DNA from: Gammaproteobacteria bacterium
GTDB lineage: Bacteria; Pseudomonadota; Gammaproteobacteria; Steroidobacterales; Woeseiaceae
DNA: 64,000 nt
NCBI GenBank assembly: GCA_029864095.1
Contig: JAOTUB010000006.1
Span: 1 to 64,000, forward strand
Direction of reading: 5' to 3'
In this document: piece by piece, positions 48,490 through 54,642 of the stretch
Layout of the letters: every line of letters starts with the position of its first letter
Numbering within the stretch: position 1 is the first letter of the stretch
Position numbers and translations under genes: made by a program
Notes under the pieces: generated by a model
The model's input: the letters and a program-made list of their open reading frames with translations, nothing else
Told to the model about the DNA's origin: nothing
Databases searched by the model: none

Positions 48490-48675
48490 ATGACTGAGAA
48501 CAATAAGCCCGACGACGCAATATCGTCGAACCCCTCTGACCAGGAACAAATACCTTTGATGCAACGGGTCCTCGATAACCCGTTTCTGCTCCTGGTCCTC
48601 GGCATCGCTGTTCCCGCGGTGTTCTATCTCATCTGGGGCATTATCGAGATAACCCAGATCCCGATCGCGGATTAA
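48490..48675 (+). CDS. Small membrane subunit at head of the heme-copper operon
   Basis: A 61-residue protein with an acidic soluble N-terminus and one membrane helix (PFLLLVLGIAVPAVFYLIWGI). GGGGG precedes the ATG at 48490. It lies 13 bases before the CuA subunit gene, so a small accessory subunit of the enzyme (like subunit IIa/IV of other heme-copper enzymes) is the natural reading. There is no sequence family to confirm this. Confidence 0.65.
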   Translation: MTENNKPDDAISSNPSDQEQIPLMQRVLDNPFLLLVLGIAVPAVFYLIWGIIEITQIPIAD

Positions 48676-48688
48676 GGGAGAAGCAACC

Positions 48689-49222
48689 ATGGCTATCACA
48701 CCTCCGAGTGAACGGATTTGGTGGCGGCAACCTATTGCGAAGATCGAACTGGTCTGGATTATCATTGCCTTTACCTGGGGTCTGATCATGTTCTTCATGA
48801 TGATCTACTGGCATGGCGCCGGAGAGCAAAACCTTTCCAATGAGGCCTACCAGATCAAGCCGCAGGTATTCGCCCAGCATGCTCAGGACATGATCGATGA
48901 GCATCAGGTCAGGGACGAAAGTGGCTTCCCTGTTGTCCATCCACCGGCTGGTAGCGATGTCTATCTGATTGCCCGGTTGTGGCAGTGGTGGCCAATTCTG
49001 GAACTCGAAAAGGACCAGAGCTACCGGCTGCACCTGTCCTCGATGGACTGGCAACACGGTTTCTCGCTGCAGCCCGTCAATATCAACGTGCAGGTGCATC
49101 CCGGTTACGAGATGGTCGTAACGATCAAGCCCGACCGGGCTGGCGAGTATGGGGTTGTGTGTAACGAATTTTGCGGGATCGGCCACCACATGATGGTTGG
49201 CAAGATCTACGTCGTCGAGTAG
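48689..49222 (+). CDS. CuA-containing subunit II of an sNOR-like heme-copper enzyme
   Basis: A 177-residue membrane-anchored subunit. One helix (about 20-40) is followed by a periplasmic cupredoxin domain. The CuA ligands are complete: His123 in WQHGF, then C158-x3-C162-x3-H166-x2-M169. It accepts electrons, normally from cytochrome c, and passes them to subunit I. The single helix and short length are as in ba3-type oxidases and in the NorS subunit of sNOR. It is 12 bases before the subunit I gene. Confidence 0.88.
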   Translation: MAITPPSERIWWRQPIAKIELVWIIIAFTWGLIMFFMMIYWHGAGEQNLSNEAYQIKPQVFAQHAQDMIDEHQVRDESGFPVVHPPAGSDVYLIARLWQWWPILELEKDQSYRLHLSSMDWQHGFSLQPVNINVQVHPGYEMVVTIKPDRAGEYGVVCNEFCGIGHHMMVGKIYVVE

Positions 49223-49234
49223 GGGGCCGCCACG

Positions 49235-50929
49235 ATGTCCAGTTTAGTAGATTACCGAACCTGCCCGACGACCGGCCTCAGAGTCGATCGATCGGCAGAA
49301 AAACTCATCAAAGCAAACGCCGTTGCCGCCGTAGTGTTCCTCGCTATTGGCGGATTGTTCGGCTTGCTGGTTGCGCTGACCCGCTGGCCGGCCGTGCATT
49401 TCCTCCCGGCAGATATGTTTTACCTGGCGCTGACGGCCCACGGTCTGGATGTGCTCCTCGTCTGGATTATCTTTTTCGAGATGGCTGTGCTGTATTTCGC
49501 CTCCGCGATCTTGCTGAATTCCAGACTGGCAGCACCAAAAGTCGCCTGGACCGGATTCGGGCTGATGTTGGTAGGCGCGTTAATCACGAATGTCGCGGTG
49601 TTGCAGGGCCAGTCGAGCGTCATGTTCACGTCGTATGTGCCAATGATGGCCGAACCTCCATTCTATTTAGGTTTGATATTGTTCGCGGTGGGGGCCCTGT
49701 TAGGCTGCGGTGTCTTCTTCGGCACCCTCGTCATCGCGAAACGGGACAAGACCTACGACGGATCAATCCCTCTTGTAACTTTTGGTGCCCTGACGGCCGC
49801 GATTATCGCCGTGTTCACGATCGCATCCGGCGCCATCATCCTGATACCGACACTACTCTGGTCGCTGGGGCTCGTCAGCCATATCGATCCGCTTATCTAC
49901 AAAACCGTCTGGTGGGCAATGGGACACTCCTCGCAACAGATCAACGTCTCGGCGCATGTCGCGGTCTGGTACGCGATCGCCGCGATGGTGTTTGGTGCCA
50001 AACCACTGTCGGAGAAAGTCAGCCGCACAGCCTTTCTGATGTACATCCTGTTCCTGCAGCTCGCGAGTGCGCACCACATGCTCGTCGAGCCGGGTTTCAG
50101 CTCGGAATGGAAGATTTTCAATACGAGTTACGCGATGTATCTGGCCGTGCTTGGCAGTATGATTCACGGCATGACCGTGCCGGGTTCGATCGAGGCAGCA
50201 CAGAGAGCGCGCGGGCTGACGAAAGGCTTGTTCGAGTGGCTGCGTAAGGCACCGTGGGGCAATCCGGCGTTCGCCGGCATGTTCATGTCGCTCGTGTTCT
50301 TCGGCTTCATTGGCGGCATCTCCGGCGTCGTCATGGGCACCGAGCAGATCAATCTGATTATGCACAACACGCTATACGTGCCAGGTCATTTCCACGGCAC
50401 GGTCGTTGCCGGGACGACGCTTGCGTTCATGGCGATTACCTACATTCTCGTGCCGCTGATCTTTCGCCGCGAACTCGTAATGAGAAAACTCGCGACGTGG
50501 CAGCCGTACGTATTTGGCATTGGCGTCGCAGGTATTTCAGTGTTCATGATGGGCGCCGGAACGCTTGGCGTCGCCCGACGACACTGGGACATGACATTCG
50601 CGGATGCGCTATTGCCATTCGACTATCCGGCCGCCGCCTACCTGATGATGGGACTCAACGGCATTTTCGCCGTTATGGCAGCGCTCGGTGGCCTGATGTA
50701 CGTCGTAATCGTCGTAGGTTCCGTGTTCTTCGGCAAGAAACTTGCGGAAGACGAAAAGCCATCATATCCGGAGGTTCCGCCGGCGTCCGCTGCAGTCAGT
50801 CACTACGGCAGTTCCGAAACTCTGAGAATTCCCGGAACCGCATTCCTCGTCGGAATCTTCTTCACTGCGTTTGTGCTTTACTACTTCGTAAACTGGAAGT
50901 ATTTGTCCGAGATCTGGCCATTAAGCTAG
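49235..50929 (+). CDS. Heme-copper subunit I lacking the active-site Tyr: probable NO reductase (NorY/sNOR-like)
   Basis: A 564-residue protein with about 13-14 membrane helices. All metal ligands are present: His69 and His387 for the low-spin heme, His385 for the high-spin heme (PGHFHG), and His231 plus His280-His281 at the second metal. In A- and B-family oxygen reductases the first of these is followed at +4 by a cross-linked tyrosine (HPxVY). Here the run is H231-S-S-Q-Q, so Gln235 takes that place. The cbb3-type tyrosine near residue 260 is also missing by hand alignment. Loss of the Tyr is typical of NO-reducing members such as sNOR. A quinol or oxygen reductase role is less likely but not excluded. 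Confidence 0.82.
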   Translation: MSSLVDYRTCPTTGLRVDRSAEKLIKANAVAAVVFLAIGGLFGLLVALTRWPAVHFLPADMFYLALTAHGLDVLLVWIIFFEMAVLYFASAILLNSRLAAPKVAWTGFGLMLVGALITNVAVLQGQSSVMFTSYVPMMAEPPFYLGLILFAVGALLGCGVFFGTLVIAKRDKTYDGSIPLVTFGALTAAIIAVFTIASGAIILIPTLLWSLGLVSHIDPLIYKTVWWAMGHSSQQINVSAHVAVWYAIAAMVFGAKPLSEKVSRTAFLMYILFLQLASAHHMLVEPGFSSEWKIFNTSYAMYLAVLGSMIHGMTVPGSIEAAQRARGLTKGLFEWLRKAPWGNPAFAGMFMSLVFFGFIGGISGVVMGTEQINLIMHNTLYVPGHFHGTVVAGTTLAFMAITYILVPLIFRRELVMRKLATWQPYVFGIGVAGISVFMMGAGTLGVARRHWDMTFADALLPFDYPAAAYLMMGLNGIFAVMAALGGLMYVVIVVGSVFFGKKLAEDEKPSYPEVPPASAAVSHYGSSETLRIPGTAFLVGIFFTAFVLYYFVNWKYLSEIWPLS

Positions 50930-50946
50930 CGGGAAAGCGGACGACA

Positions 50947-51729
50947 ATGCGTGCCACAGCCGTTTGCGGCGTTCTCATCCTTGTCGGGATGGCTGCGCCG
51001 GCCGCGGCGCAGCAAGACTACGACCGGGACGCCGCCCTGGCCATCAGTCAGAGCGCGATCGGTCGGACAATCGGTGACCACACTTTTCGGGACGTCGATG
51101 GTCAATCATTTTCCCTACTGGCGCTCCGCGACAAGCCGCTGGTTGTCAGCCTCATCTACACGAGTTGTCACCACGTGTGTCCTCTGATCACGGCCAACAT
51201 CGAGAAGAACGTCGACATCGCCCATGAGGCCCTTGGCGCAGACGCATTTTCGGTCGTTTCTATCGGTTTTGACTGGCAGGTGGACACGCCAGATCGAATG
51301 CGCATGTATGCCGCTGCCAAGGGCATAGACACGCCTGGCTGGCACTTTCTGAGCGGGGACGAAGCGTCCGTCGCAGCAATCAGCGAGGATGTCGGGTTTC
51401 AGTATTTCCGAACTGCCAAGGGCTTCGACCATTTGTCGCAAACGACCGTCATCGACGCAGACGGTAAGGTCTACCGCCAAATCTATGGCCAGGACTTCGG
51501 CGCGCAAGCATTCGTCGAGCCCCTCAAGGAGCTGGTATTCGATACGCCGCGCGAGGCCGGCATCGTTGACCACTGGCTGGACACGTTCAAATTGTTTTGC
51601 ACGGTCTATGATCCGAATACTGGCCGTTACCAGTTCGACTACTCGATATTCATGACCATATTGGTCGGCGTGCTATGCCTCGGCGCTATACTGGCGTTTA
51701 TCGTGTACGAGTGGCGGCACGCAAAATGA
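50947..51729 (+). CDS. SCO1/SenC copper chaperone
   Basis: A 260-residue exported thioredoxin-fold protein with a signal peptide (about 1-21) and a C-terminal membrane helix (about 230-252). The copper ligands Cys74 and Cys78 (SCHHVCP) and His162 (FDHL) are present. SCO proteins load CuA or CuB, which suits the neighbouring CuA subunit. The order subunit II-subunit I-SenC is that of norSY-senC clusters of nitrifiers. The ATG at 50947 is chosen for the signal peptide; it starts 17 bases after subunit I. Confidence 0.9.
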   Translation: MRATAVCGVLILVGMAAPAAAQQDYDRDAALAISQSAIGRTIGDHTFRDVDGQSFSLLALRDKPLVVSLIYTSCHHVCPLITANIEKNVDIAHEALGADAFSVVSIGFDWQVDTPDRMRMYAAAKGIDTPGWHFLSGDEASVAAISEDVGFQYFRTAKGFDHLSQTTVIDADGKVYRQIYGQDFGAQAFVEPLKELVFDTPREAGIVDHWLDTFKLFCTVYDPNTGRYQFDYSIFMTILVGVLCLGAILAFIVYEWRHAK

Positions 51730-51739
51730 CCGACTTTTT

Positions 51740-53287
51740 ATGGCGTTTTTGAAACGCTCTCTCCGAATTCTGTATGCGCGCGCCGAAGCAGTCTTTGACT
51801 GGACTTTCGGGCAGCGCGCCAATCCACTCACCCATTTGGGGTCACTCGGCTGGTTCTTCTTCTGGATTGTCACGGCCAGCGGCATTTATCTTTACCTGTT
51901 CTTCGACACCGGAATAATCGATGCGTACGCATCCGTCGAGTACATCACCAACGATCAGTGGTACGCGGCGGGCGTCATGCGCAGCCTGCACCGCTATGCG
52001 TCGGACGCGCTCGTCATCGTGGTCTTTTTGCACATACTGCGCGAGTTCTCGCTCGATCGCCTGCGTGGCAAGCGCTTCTTCGCCTGGCTGACGGGCGTCC
52101 CTCTGCTCTGGTTTATCTATATCTGTGGCATCACAGGATATTGGTTGGTTTGGGACAAACTGGCACAATACATCGCGGTCGCGACATCCGAGTGGCTCGA
52201 TACGCTGCCGTTCTTCGGTGAACCGATTGCGAACAACTTCCTGAATAGCTCGACGCTCGGCGGCCGCTTTTTCACACTGATGGTCTTCATGCACATCTTC
52301 GCGCCGCTGTTCATGCTGTTCCTGATGTGGTTACACATCCAGCGGCACGCCCGGGCTCGGGTCAATCCGCCCAGACCATTAGCCATCGGCACGGCTATTA
52401 CGCTGGTCGTCTTGTCGCTCGTCTATCCCGCCGTCAGCCAGGGCCCGGCCAATCTCGATGTTGTGCCCGCGACCGTCAACCTCGACTGGTATTATCTCGC
52501 CGCCTATCCGCTACTCGATGTTATACCCGGTGGACGCCTTTGGCTGATACTGGTCGCAGGATCGATTCTCTTGTCGCTGATGCCGTGGATTCCGCCGGCG
52601 AAACCGCGACCGGCTGCCGTCGTCAGTCTCGACAACTGCAACGGCTGTGGCCGCTGCTTCGACGATTGCCCATTCAGCGCCATCACGATGGGCCCTCGCA
52701 GCGATGGTCTTGCATACGCCACCGAGGCCGTCGTCGACGTCGACAACTGCGTGAGTTGTGGAATCTGTGCGGGTGCCTGCCCCACCGCGACGCCATTCCG
52801 TCGCGCAACCGCGATCGTGCCGGGCATTGAACTGCCCGACCACTCTATTGCACAGCTGCGTGAGCGGACGTTGCAGGCGTCGGCGAGCTTCGACAACGTG
52901 CCGCGAGTCCTGGTCTACGCATGCGACCACTCCGGCACCGAGGGCGCGGGTGGCGAGAACACGCGGCTCATCAATATGCCGTGCGTCGCGATGCTGCCAC
53001 CGGCTTTTGTGGACTTCGTCCTCTCCCGTGGCCTGGCAGACGGAGTAATGCTCGCGGGCTGCGCCGAGGGAGACTGCTACTACCGTCTGGGCGACCGTTG
53101 GACCCAAGAGCGCGTTGCAGGCACACGAGACCCGTACCTACGCAAACGGGTAGACCGCGACCGTCTGATCCTCAGTTGGCTGCCATCGGGCAGCAAGCGC
53201 CGGCGCACAAGTGCGCTGGCAGAATTCACGGCTTCGCTCGAAAAACTGCCGGCGAAAACGACGAGCAGGAGAGCGGACCGTGCATAA
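51740..53287 (+). CDS. Cytochrome b-ferredoxin-FlpD/MvhD triple fusion
   Basis: A 515-residue fusion. Residues 1-210 are a cytochrome b/b6-type four-helix unit with two bis-His heme sites (H84/H185, H98/H199). One or two further helices run to about 285. Residues 295-350 hold two [4Fe-4S] clusters: C300, C303, C306, C310 and C337, C340, C343, C347. Residues about 388-480 are an FlpD/MvhD-like iron-sulfur domain with C395, C415, C441 and C446 (the GCAEGDCYY motif). FlpD domains normally pass electrons into heterodisulfide reductases. The fusion should connect the quinone pool with a cytoplasmic carrier. It sits 10 bases after the SCO gene. Confidence 0.85.
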   Translation: MAFLKRSLRILYARAEAVFDWTFGQRANPLTHLGSLGWFFFWIVTASGIYLYLFFDTGIIDAYASVEYITNDQWYAAGVMRSLHRYASDALVIVVFLHILREFSLDRLRGKRFFAWLTGVPLLWFIYICGITGYWLVWDKLAQYIAVATSEWLDTLPFFGEPIANNFLNSSTLGGRFFTLMVFMHIFAPLFMLFLMWLHIQRHARARVNPPRPLAIGTAITLVVLSLVYPAVSQGPANLDVVPATVNLDWYYLAAYPLLDVIPGGRLWLILVAGSILLSLMPWIPPAKPRPAAVVSLDNCNGCGRCFDDCPFSAITMGPRSDGLAYATEAVVDVDNCVSCGICAGACPTATPFRRATAIVPGIELPDHSIAQLRERTLQASASFDNVPRVLVYACDHSGTEGAGGENTRLINMPCVAMLPPAFVDFVLSRGLADGVMLAGCAEGDCYYRLGDRWTQERVAGTRDPYLRKRVDRDRLILSWLPSGSKRRRTSALAEFTASLEKLPAKTTSRRADRA

Positions 53288-53783
53288 TGTAGTGCGCTTC
53301 GTTTTGCAGACAACCGCCTATGCGGCATTCGCATTCGCCATCGGCTACCTGTCGTTCTGGCCGCGCTACGAATACGCGTCGCCGGCGTCGGCCACGATCA
53401 AGCTCTCTCTGAGCCACGCAACAGAGCGTGTCCAGCCCTGCGTGCAGCTCACCCCCCAGCAAATTGCCGAGCTGGCGCCGAATATGCGGCGCTCGCAGTC
53501 CTGTGAGCGCAAGCGCCGTCCACTGTTGCTCGAGCTTGAGCTTGATGGCGATGTCGTGATTGAGCTGCAGGCCGCTCCTTCGGGACTCTGGGGAGACGGG
53601 CCTGCATCAGTCTACGAACGTTTCGATCTGGTTCCCGGCACGCATACGATCACCGTGCGGATGCGTGACTCAGCGCAAGTTGATACTTGGGACTACACTC
53701 ATACAGAGGATGTCACGCTCGAAGCGGGACGCTACCTGACAATTACATTCAGAGCCGAAAACGGAGGCTTCAGAATTCGATGA
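53280..53783 (+). CDS. Anchored periplasmic protein of unknown function
   Basis: A 167-residue protein from a GTG at 53280, with AGGAG upstream and an eight-base overlap with the fusion gene. An N-terminal membrane helix (about residues 8-25) precedes a domain of mainly beta-strands with two cysteines (about 49 and 70). It ends in strands typical of an Ig-like fold (VPGTHTITVRM ... LTITFRAENG). No family was recognised. Its coupling on both sides (ATGA with the hemerythrin gene) argues for a role in the same system. Confidence 0.7.
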   Translation: MHNVVRFVLQTTAYAAFAFAIGYLSFWPRYEYASPASATIKLSLSHATERVQPCVQLTPQQIAELAPNMRRSQSCERKRRPLLLELELDGDVVIELQAAPSGLWGDGPASVYERFDLVPGTHTITVRMRDSAQVDTWDYTHTEDVTLEAGRYLTITFRAENGGFRIR

Positions 53784-54175
53784 GCCGTTTGCAATGGAGA
53801 GATGAATTCAAGGTCGGCATTACCGAGGTCGACCACGAACACCGTGAACTGATCGGACTAATCAACGAACTCCATGAAGCCATACAGCAAAGCGTCGACC
53901 CCGATCAGATCCTCGAGTCGCTGGGCGAGATCTATGCACAGATCTCGGCGCATTTCGCACTTGAGGAAAAAATGATGCGCAAGATAAGGTATCCGGCCTA
54001 CAAGGCACACAAGGATGATCACGAAACGCTGCTGGATGACCTGCGTGACATTATGGACGATGTGGAAGACGACGGCGTTCTTAACGAAACGCAGTTGATG
54101 AGTGATCTCAATCGCTGGTTCAGCGACCACTTTCGAACGCACGACGCCAAATTGCATCAGTCCGGGCACGGATAG
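53780..54175 (+). CDS. Bacteriohemerythrin
   Basis: A 131-residue single-domain bacteriohemerythrin. The di-iron ligands are in place: VDHEH (about 20-23), HFALEEKMM (about 57-61), HKDDH (about 76-80) and HFRTHDAKL (about 118-123). It binds O2 reversibly, and NO at the di-iron site in some members. The start overlaps the preceding stop as ATGA, making it the last gene of the sNOR-like operon. Delivery or scavenging of O2 or NO for the operon's enzyme is inferred. Confidence 0.88.
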   Translation: MSRLQWRDEFKVGITEVDHEHRELIGLINELHEAIQQSVDPDQILESLGEIYAQISAHFALEEKMMRKIRYPAYKAHKDDHETLLDDLRDIMDDVEDDGVLNETQLMSDLNRWFSDHFRTHDAKLHQSGHG

Positions 54176-54588: not shown

Positions 54589-54642
54589 CCCCAGCCACAC
54601 CAAAGCGGGCCCCGTGTGGGACCCGCTTTGGTGTGGCTGGGG
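54589..54642. repeat. Perfect 21-bp inverted repeat covering the tRNA 3' end
   Basis: The arm at 54589-54609 is the exact reverse complement of 54622-54642; the 12-base loop can add three more pairs. The right arm contains the last nine bases of the tRNA-Gln gene including CCA. On the minus strand it would form a very stable hairpin straight after, and partly within, the tRNA. There is no T run, so it is not a standard terminator. Confidence 0.9.

Follow-up and report, generated by a model that had tools for sequence, protein, structure and literature searches.

The operon and its genes

The window analysed here is a stretch of 64,000 nucleotides from the forward strand of contig JAOTUB010000006.1 (assembly GCA_029864095.1), from a gammaproteobacterium of the family Woeseiaceae. 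At 48490-54175 it carries seven tightly packed open frames, all on the + strand and without internal stops, which encode a heme-copper enzyme together with its putative accessory proteins. Gaps of 10-17 bases separate the genes, except at the final two junctions, which are overlaps of 8 and 4 bases, and the genes are found in register in relatives from the window's order.

The first frame (48490..48675) encodes a small one-helix subunit of 61 residues with no matches in Pfam or NCBIfam. Its position is that of the small peptides beside the CuA and subunit I genes in Thermus, Thermomicrobium and Defluviimonas loci, and a homologue is present in 37 of the 40 loci of the window's order as well as in L105-L107; the three order loci that have none are L051, which is cut within subunit I, and L052 and L053, which hold Tyr-bearing B-family enzymes. 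Subunit II (48689..49222) is a CuA cupredoxin with an N-terminal membrane anchor (Pfam COX2, 3e-5; NCBIfam CoxB, 2.9e-12, under its cut-off), from whose sequence the full set of CuA ligands can be read off: H123, C158, E160, C162, H166 and M169. Subunit I (49235..50929; Pfam COX1, 2.8e-63) bears the motif GHSSQQ and is of the eNOR type of nitric oxide reductase (NOR) as judged by a column check, a tree and a motif survey. It is followed directly by a SCO/SenC copper chaperone (50947..51729; Pfam SCO1-SenC, 5.5e-15) and then by a protein that joins a di-heme cytochrome b to two [4Fe-4S] motifs and an FlpD/MvhD domain (51740..53287; Pfam Cytochrome_B, 1.1e-19, and FlpD, 6.5e-15), hereafter the fusion. 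The last two genes encode an anchored protein with one helix and a beta-sandwich domain (53280..53783; GTG start, 29-row alignment, AlphaFold2 pLDDT 94.4) and a bacteriohemerythrin (53780..54175; Pfam Hemerythrin, 2.8e-14; NCBIfam bact_hemeryth, 103 bits, above cut-off).

An earlier, sequence-only reading of the window had proposed an operon of these seven genes (the fusion as a cytochrome b-Fe-S protein), a subunit II with complete CuA ligands, a SCO/SenC gene directly after subunit I, and a subunit I that keeps its six histidines and has Gln235 in place of a tyrosine. The seven frames exist at the stated place and agree with such Pfam and NCBIfam matches as there are, the sequence bears out the CuA ligands and the SCO/SenC position, and the residues of subunit I are upheld by the alignment described next.

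Subunit I groups with glutamine-bearing enzymes

In the alignment, all of the subunit I histidines are kept (H69, H231, H280, H281, H385 and H387), and the column occupied by Q235 is Tyr in all seven B-family and all five A-family rows. A tree was built from 48 heme-copper proteins, the window's among them and no named eNOR (Rhodothermus marinus, for one, is not in it). The window's subunit I falls within a clade of 19 rows (support 98/95), every one of which has Gln at the Tyr column; Thermus and Thermomicrobium rows are among them. The sister of this clade is a clade of paralogs lacking CuB, to which we return below, and the Tyr-bearing B-family rows come next out. Such a tree had been put forward in the sequence-only reading as the check on its proposal of NO reduction: the window protein lies outside the Tyr-bearing oxygen-reductase clade, the seven B-family rows forming a separate clade. 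In a wider motif survey HxxQQ was found in 138 of 141 loci; the script left three unread, one of which (L051) has HSSQQ when read otherwise. In the alignment, which was examined for a possible conserved proton channel, Y246, a tyrosine of the B-family rows, is kept in all 19 rows of the Gln clade. The best PDB matches of subunit I are subunits I of cytochrome c oxidases, including Thermus ba3 (E ~1e-45).

The residue at this position has served to separate known classes. In Table A4 of PMC8756737 the residue in place of the Tyr is Asn in sNOR and Gln in eNOR; that source takes the Gln as the defining mark of eNOR, by which it identifies the enzyme in Alpha-, Beta-, Gamma- and Deltaproteobacteria. 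For the ba3-a1 type, a SCO gene in the operon and the loss of the Tyr had been described earlier (PMC6431628); it was renamed eNOR after NO reductase activity was reported, with cytochrome c as donor (PMC8879329), and eNOR stands among the biochemically characterised enzymes in the list of PMC11388526. The window enzyme is best filed, on its sequence, as a new member of eNOR, albeit from a tree with no named eNOR in it, and NO reduction is the best reading of what this copy would catalyse.

Two departures were seen among relatives. The eNOR-like subunit I of a Thermus plasmid (L107:6983-8668) has GHFK in place of the GHFH or AHFH of other clade rows, so its low-spin heme ligand seems to have changed to Lys. 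The eNOR-like protein of L129 and L130 carries the motif STQQ.

Nitric oxide in the genome and genus

The window's genome (3.83 Mb, 95.8% complete) encodes three COX1 proteins above cut-off. As these are an A-family enzyme, a cbb3 enzyme and the window's eNOR-type enzyme, no cNOR or qNOR is seen in it, the search for NO-consuming enzymes having covered the heme-copper superfamily only. NirS is present. To what extent do the two genes travel together? We compiled by hand the 63 genomes of the genus present in both searches, ten others being left out, and counted eNOR at E <= 1e-20, fragments included, and NirS at E < 1e-60. Both occur in 26 genomes, eNOR only in five, NirS only in ten and neither in 22 (Fisher p 3.3e-5, for related genomes); the NirS of G214, a fragment of 48 residues where a contig ends, was scored as absent. 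In nine genus genomes nirS lies ~4-6 kb from the subunit I gene. A similar proximity is found on a Thermus thermophilus plasmid, where a relative (46% identity, HGAQQ) lies ~3.5 kb from nirS, and a figure legend for the denitrification cluster of Thermus scotoductus names hemerythrin proteins along with a heme-copper subunit I and an Rrf2 regulator (PMC3235269). NirK (TIGR02376) has no match in the window's genome and one above cut-off among 73 genus genomes. The NosZ profile PF18764 matched neither the genomes nor the controls, so it has no bearing on N2O reduction.

The NirS of the window's own genome (L075:2200-4365, 722 residues) has two c-type heme motifs, CAACH and CAGCH, before the d1 domain, and resembles the C1-C2-NirS layout reported for Chloroflexi (PMC8756737).

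A cytochrome b fusion that tracks the enzyme

The heme histidines of the fusion are H84/H98 and H185/H199; these four, eight ferredoxin cysteines and four FlpD cysteines are invariant in 27 aligned fusions, the window's included. In an AlphaFold2 model (pLDDT 79.7), residues 13-288 take the cytochrome b fold (Z 22.4, 254 aligned, root-mean-square deviation 3.4). FlpD domains dock to HdrA-type flavoproteins.

Across 398 genomes from the window's phylum, a profile of the fusion matches 34 and the eNOR protein 31: 30 have both, one has eNOR only, four have the fusion only and 363 have neither, with a p of 1e-39 that should not be taken at face value because the genomes and families are related. 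The 31 are spread over 12 family codes, and the fusion occurs in 11 of those. In this table a match of 68% identity over 84 residues was accepted as eNOR in G522, and the low-identity matches in G617, G630, G406, G582, G358 and G387 were not. The contig of G364, the sole genome with eNOR and without the fusion, stops 2.6 kb past the enzyme. In several genomes (G329, G340, G344 and G368) the enzyme and the fusion sit on different contigs, so the link between them is not one of operon membership alone.

Four genomes have two adjacent FlpD-type cytochrome b fusions (G496 and G431, at L129/L130, G522 and G573). A single open reading frame with comparable parts, RME88945.1, is given in Table A3 of PMC8756737 as a C1 cytochrome domain followed by cytochrome b6, ferredoxin-like and FlpD domains.

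Other accessory genes and operon variants

Operon composition was counted in the 109 distinct eNOR loci that extend 7 kb or more downstream, a gene being taken as in the operon if on the same strand and no more than 9 kb downstream of subunit I. One search behind these counts kept the best 80 of at least 570 relatives, chosen by closeness to the betaproteobacterium-like L111; the proportions therefore describe a sample that leans to betaproteobacteria and not nature at large. SCO and the anchored protein are in the operon in 103 loci each, the fusion in 97, heme O synthase in 64, a CuB-less paralog of subunit I in 63, a cytochrome b-2Fe-2S/FAD/NAD reductase in 59 and hemerythrin in 28. Some further copies lie elsewhere in the locus (ctaB 8, paralog 8, SCO 6; fusion, reductase and anchored protein 1 each). 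The commonest set, in 40 loci, is heme O synthase, SCO, fusion, anchored protein, paralog and reductase; the window's own set of SCO, fusion, anchored protein and hemerythrin comes second, in 17. That the accessory set might be peculiar to the window's genome is ruled out by these counts, the set being widespread and modular, and the operon is, as far as its genes can be compared, an extended variant of the eNOR operon. The literature searched, from which the main eNOR paper was out of reach, gave no description of the accessory genes besides SCO as an eNOR set; this set may be new, and part of it may already be known.

Heme O synthase, which the window operon does not have, suggests by its presence in many operons an enzyme with an o- or a-type heme. 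A Defluviimonas plasmid carries the whole set with cyoE, its subunit I being annotated as a cbb3-type oxidase. The hemerythrin residues H21, H58, E62, H77, H81, H117 and D122, which we take to be the expected di-iron ligands, are invariant in a 15-row alignment. In the anchored protein His46, Cys54 and Cys75 are nearly invariant (29-row alignment). It belongs to no Pfam or NCBIfam family, and a fold search gave no Foldseek match at E < 0.001, the matches being of a common beta-sandwich kind from which no function could be read; the best VIA Z scores are 8.8 (8jl4, 'membrane proteins') and 8.7 (human HGSNAT).

The CuB-less paralogs, of ~470 residues, lie in or beside eNOR operons (L048:4426-5832, L045:11445-12851 and L111:3127-4482, among others) and form a clade of their own on a long branch. 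They keep the histidines that align with H69, H231, H385 and H387, but in all eight rows the second and the third CuB histidine are both gone, so the paralog should not be able to bind CuB. Two that were examined have no NCBIfam name, the plasmids hold no match to one, and no assigned role was found for them in the literature searched. The reductase, a cytochrome b with 2Fe-2S ferredoxin, FAD and NAD domains (L048:5840-7753, L170:15973-17952 and L176:13520-15559; Pfam domains read for L048), stands with the FlpD fusion or instead of it. Castellaniella defragrans DSM 12141 (L176) has the core genes with the CuB-less paralog and this reductase, and Acidovorax sp. 210-6 (L170) carries the FlpD fusion as well; both are cultivable.

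Around the operon, a strong hairpin at 54589-54642 (21 + 3 predicted base pairs, -54.5 kcal/mol) lies between its end and a tRNA-Gln gene and is perhaps a two-way terminator. FNR-like palindromes were looked for in upstream regions; the window has none, and there is a single match, in L067. One relative has a gene for a Crp/Fnr-family regulator immediately before its eNOR operon (L065:5882-6601); no such gene is seen directly upstream in the window.

Proposed mechanism and alternative readings

The genes, their ligands, the clade of subunit I and the co-occurrence of the enzyme with NirS and with the fusion are direct results of computation. Our preferred reading is that the operon probably encodes an eNOR-type NO reductase with its accessory proteins, the fusion acting as a dedicated electron-transfer partner. 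Beyond NO reduction by this copy, we infer an electron route and roles for the fusion, the hemerythrin and the anchored protein. Reduced cytochrome c would deliver electrons to the CuA centre of subunit II, from where they would go to the low-spin heme (H69/H387) and on to the active site, made up of the high-spin heme (H385) and CuB (H231, H280, H281); there, with Gln235 in the place of the cross-linking Tyr, 2 NO would be converted to N2O. SCO would load the copper. The hemerythrin would bind O2 or NO close to the enzyme and may guard against O2 or hold NO. The fusion would connect a cytoplasmic donor with the quinone pool or with the enzyme itself, and may in this way be the electron source for eNOR.

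A role for the fusion in assembly is the alternative that survives best. Here the fusion would be a reductase of copper or heme precursors during maturation rather than a donor in turnover, as the polyferredoxin CcoG is for cbb3. The neighbours of the fusion do include assembly genes (SCO and, in many cases, ctaB), and fusion and enzyme occur in the same genomes even where the two are unlinked. On the other hand, it is a di-heme cytochrome b with four invariant histidines and an LDWYYL stretch like the PEWY of the quinol site, and in many operons a second cytochrome b with an NAD(P)H-type reductase stands in its place or beside it, which favours electron input over assembly, short of proof. 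We regard the assembly role as somewhat unlikely. Going further in the direction of electron input, eNOR in Pseudomonadota might belong to a wider respiratory module where the fusion, joined in many lineages by the paralog and the reductase, feeds in cytoplasmic low-potential or NAD(P)H electrons, possibly conserving energy and bypassing the bc1 complex; this is speculative and, in our view, a shade less likely still.

Could the enzyme instead be a B-family oxygen reductase that has lost its Tyr cross-link and still mainly reduces O2, at low oxygen? By sequence, its nearest relatives of solved structure are cytochrome c oxidases, the Thermus ba3 type among them, heme O synthase accompanies many of the related operons, the hemerythrin could deliver O2, and O2 reduction has been argued for the enzyme of ammonia-oxidising bacteria (AOB) (PMC6967387). 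We nevertheless consider this improbable in view of the Gln, not Tyr, at H+4 throughout the clade, the linkage to NirS, the NO reduction reported for eNOR (PMC8879329), and the A-family and cbb3 oxidases that the genome already has.

The sequence-only reading had called the enzyme an sNOR-like NO reductase. Its NO reduction stands as the best reading; the sNOR label does not, by the Asn/Gln test and by the tree. A search for ammonia monooxygenase (AMO) over 399 genomes from the order of G661 gave 12 matches, of which the eight sharing genus code g90 were used. None of the eight matches the window's subunit I at 1e-6, in a search that had no positive control within it; the same query did match in the genus and phylum genome searches. 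Two of the eight (L247 and L248) carry in order a CuA gene, a 492/494-residue subunit I, SenC and a multi-helix orf1, the arrangement named norSY-senC-orf1 in PMC4940428. Their NorY proteins read GHVVIN and GHVFIN, with Asn in place of the Tyr, and form a long branch beside the A-family, outside the window's 98/95 clade; the tree program warns of meeting long branches at this point. The window shares with such clusters a CuA gene directly before subunit I, a SCO gene after it and the loss of the Tyr, and the literature gives the AOB enzyme a B-type affinity (PMC6967387), but that it is a true nitrifier-type sNOR (NorSY) is highly improbable: membership is ruled out by Asn against Gln, as in the published table (PMC8756737), by the tree, by the different orf1 and by the gene order, in which the cytochrome b fusion follows SCO in the window whereas another membrane protein, orf1, does so in the AOB clusters.

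Several points weigh against an eNOR with the fusion as its partner. With no named eNOR in the tree, membership rests on the Gln, the CuA site, the neighbourhood and published criteria. The exact position of NorY in the tree is unsure, because long branches meet there and PMC6967387 calls the enzyme B-type; that it falls outside the 98/95 clade is not in doubt. In the genus a clear NirS is missing from five eNOR-positive genomes and ten others carry NirS but no eNOR, and the co-occurrence p-values overstate independence because the genomes are related. The Thermus and Thermomicrobium enzyme loci have no fusion in the stretch fetched. Finally, a cytochrome c-linked CuA enzyme needs no cytoplasmic donor, and the fusion might serve assembly instead.

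Implications

Genes for eNOR are often annotated as cytochrome oxidases (PMC8756737), and such annotations were also met in the loci examined here, so genome surveys can overlook producers of N2O, the product of eNOR and a greenhouse gas. The almost one-to-one pairing of eNOR and the fusion in the genomes examined offers a second marker gene. It also poses a testable question, namely where the electrons for NO reduction come from and whether energy is conserved. If the respiratory-module reading is true, NO respiration need not pass through the bc1 complex.

Comparison with known systems

The window operon resembles eNOR (ba3-a1) in its Gln for Tyr, its six histidines, a CuA gene directly upstream and SCO in the operon, and also in that proteobacterial hosts are known, the genes are annotated as cytochrome oxidase and the enzyme lies on the B-family side of the superfamily. 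The fusion, the anchored protein and the hemerythrin are not mentioned with eNOR in the passages of the literature examined. Like the AOB sNOR, the operon has a CuA subunit II, a Tyr-less heme-copper subunit I and SenC; the sNOR differs in having Asn rather than Gln, a subunit I ~70 residues shorter, placement in another clade and a multi-helix orf1. The bNOR/qCuANOR of Bacillus azotoformans likewise combines a small peptide, a CuA subunit, a subunit I and SenC, and differs in having Asn at the Tyr position (PMC3475470). Thermus thermophilus ba3 is kin by sequence (1ehk/1xme, E ~1e-45), but has HPIVY, with the Tyr, where the window has HSSQQ. As for the fusion, it shares a cytochrome b core with cytochrome b6/bc1 and an HdrA2-like ferredoxin and FlpD tail with HdrA2/MvhD; unlike either of these, it holds both in one chain, and that chain tracks an NO reductase.

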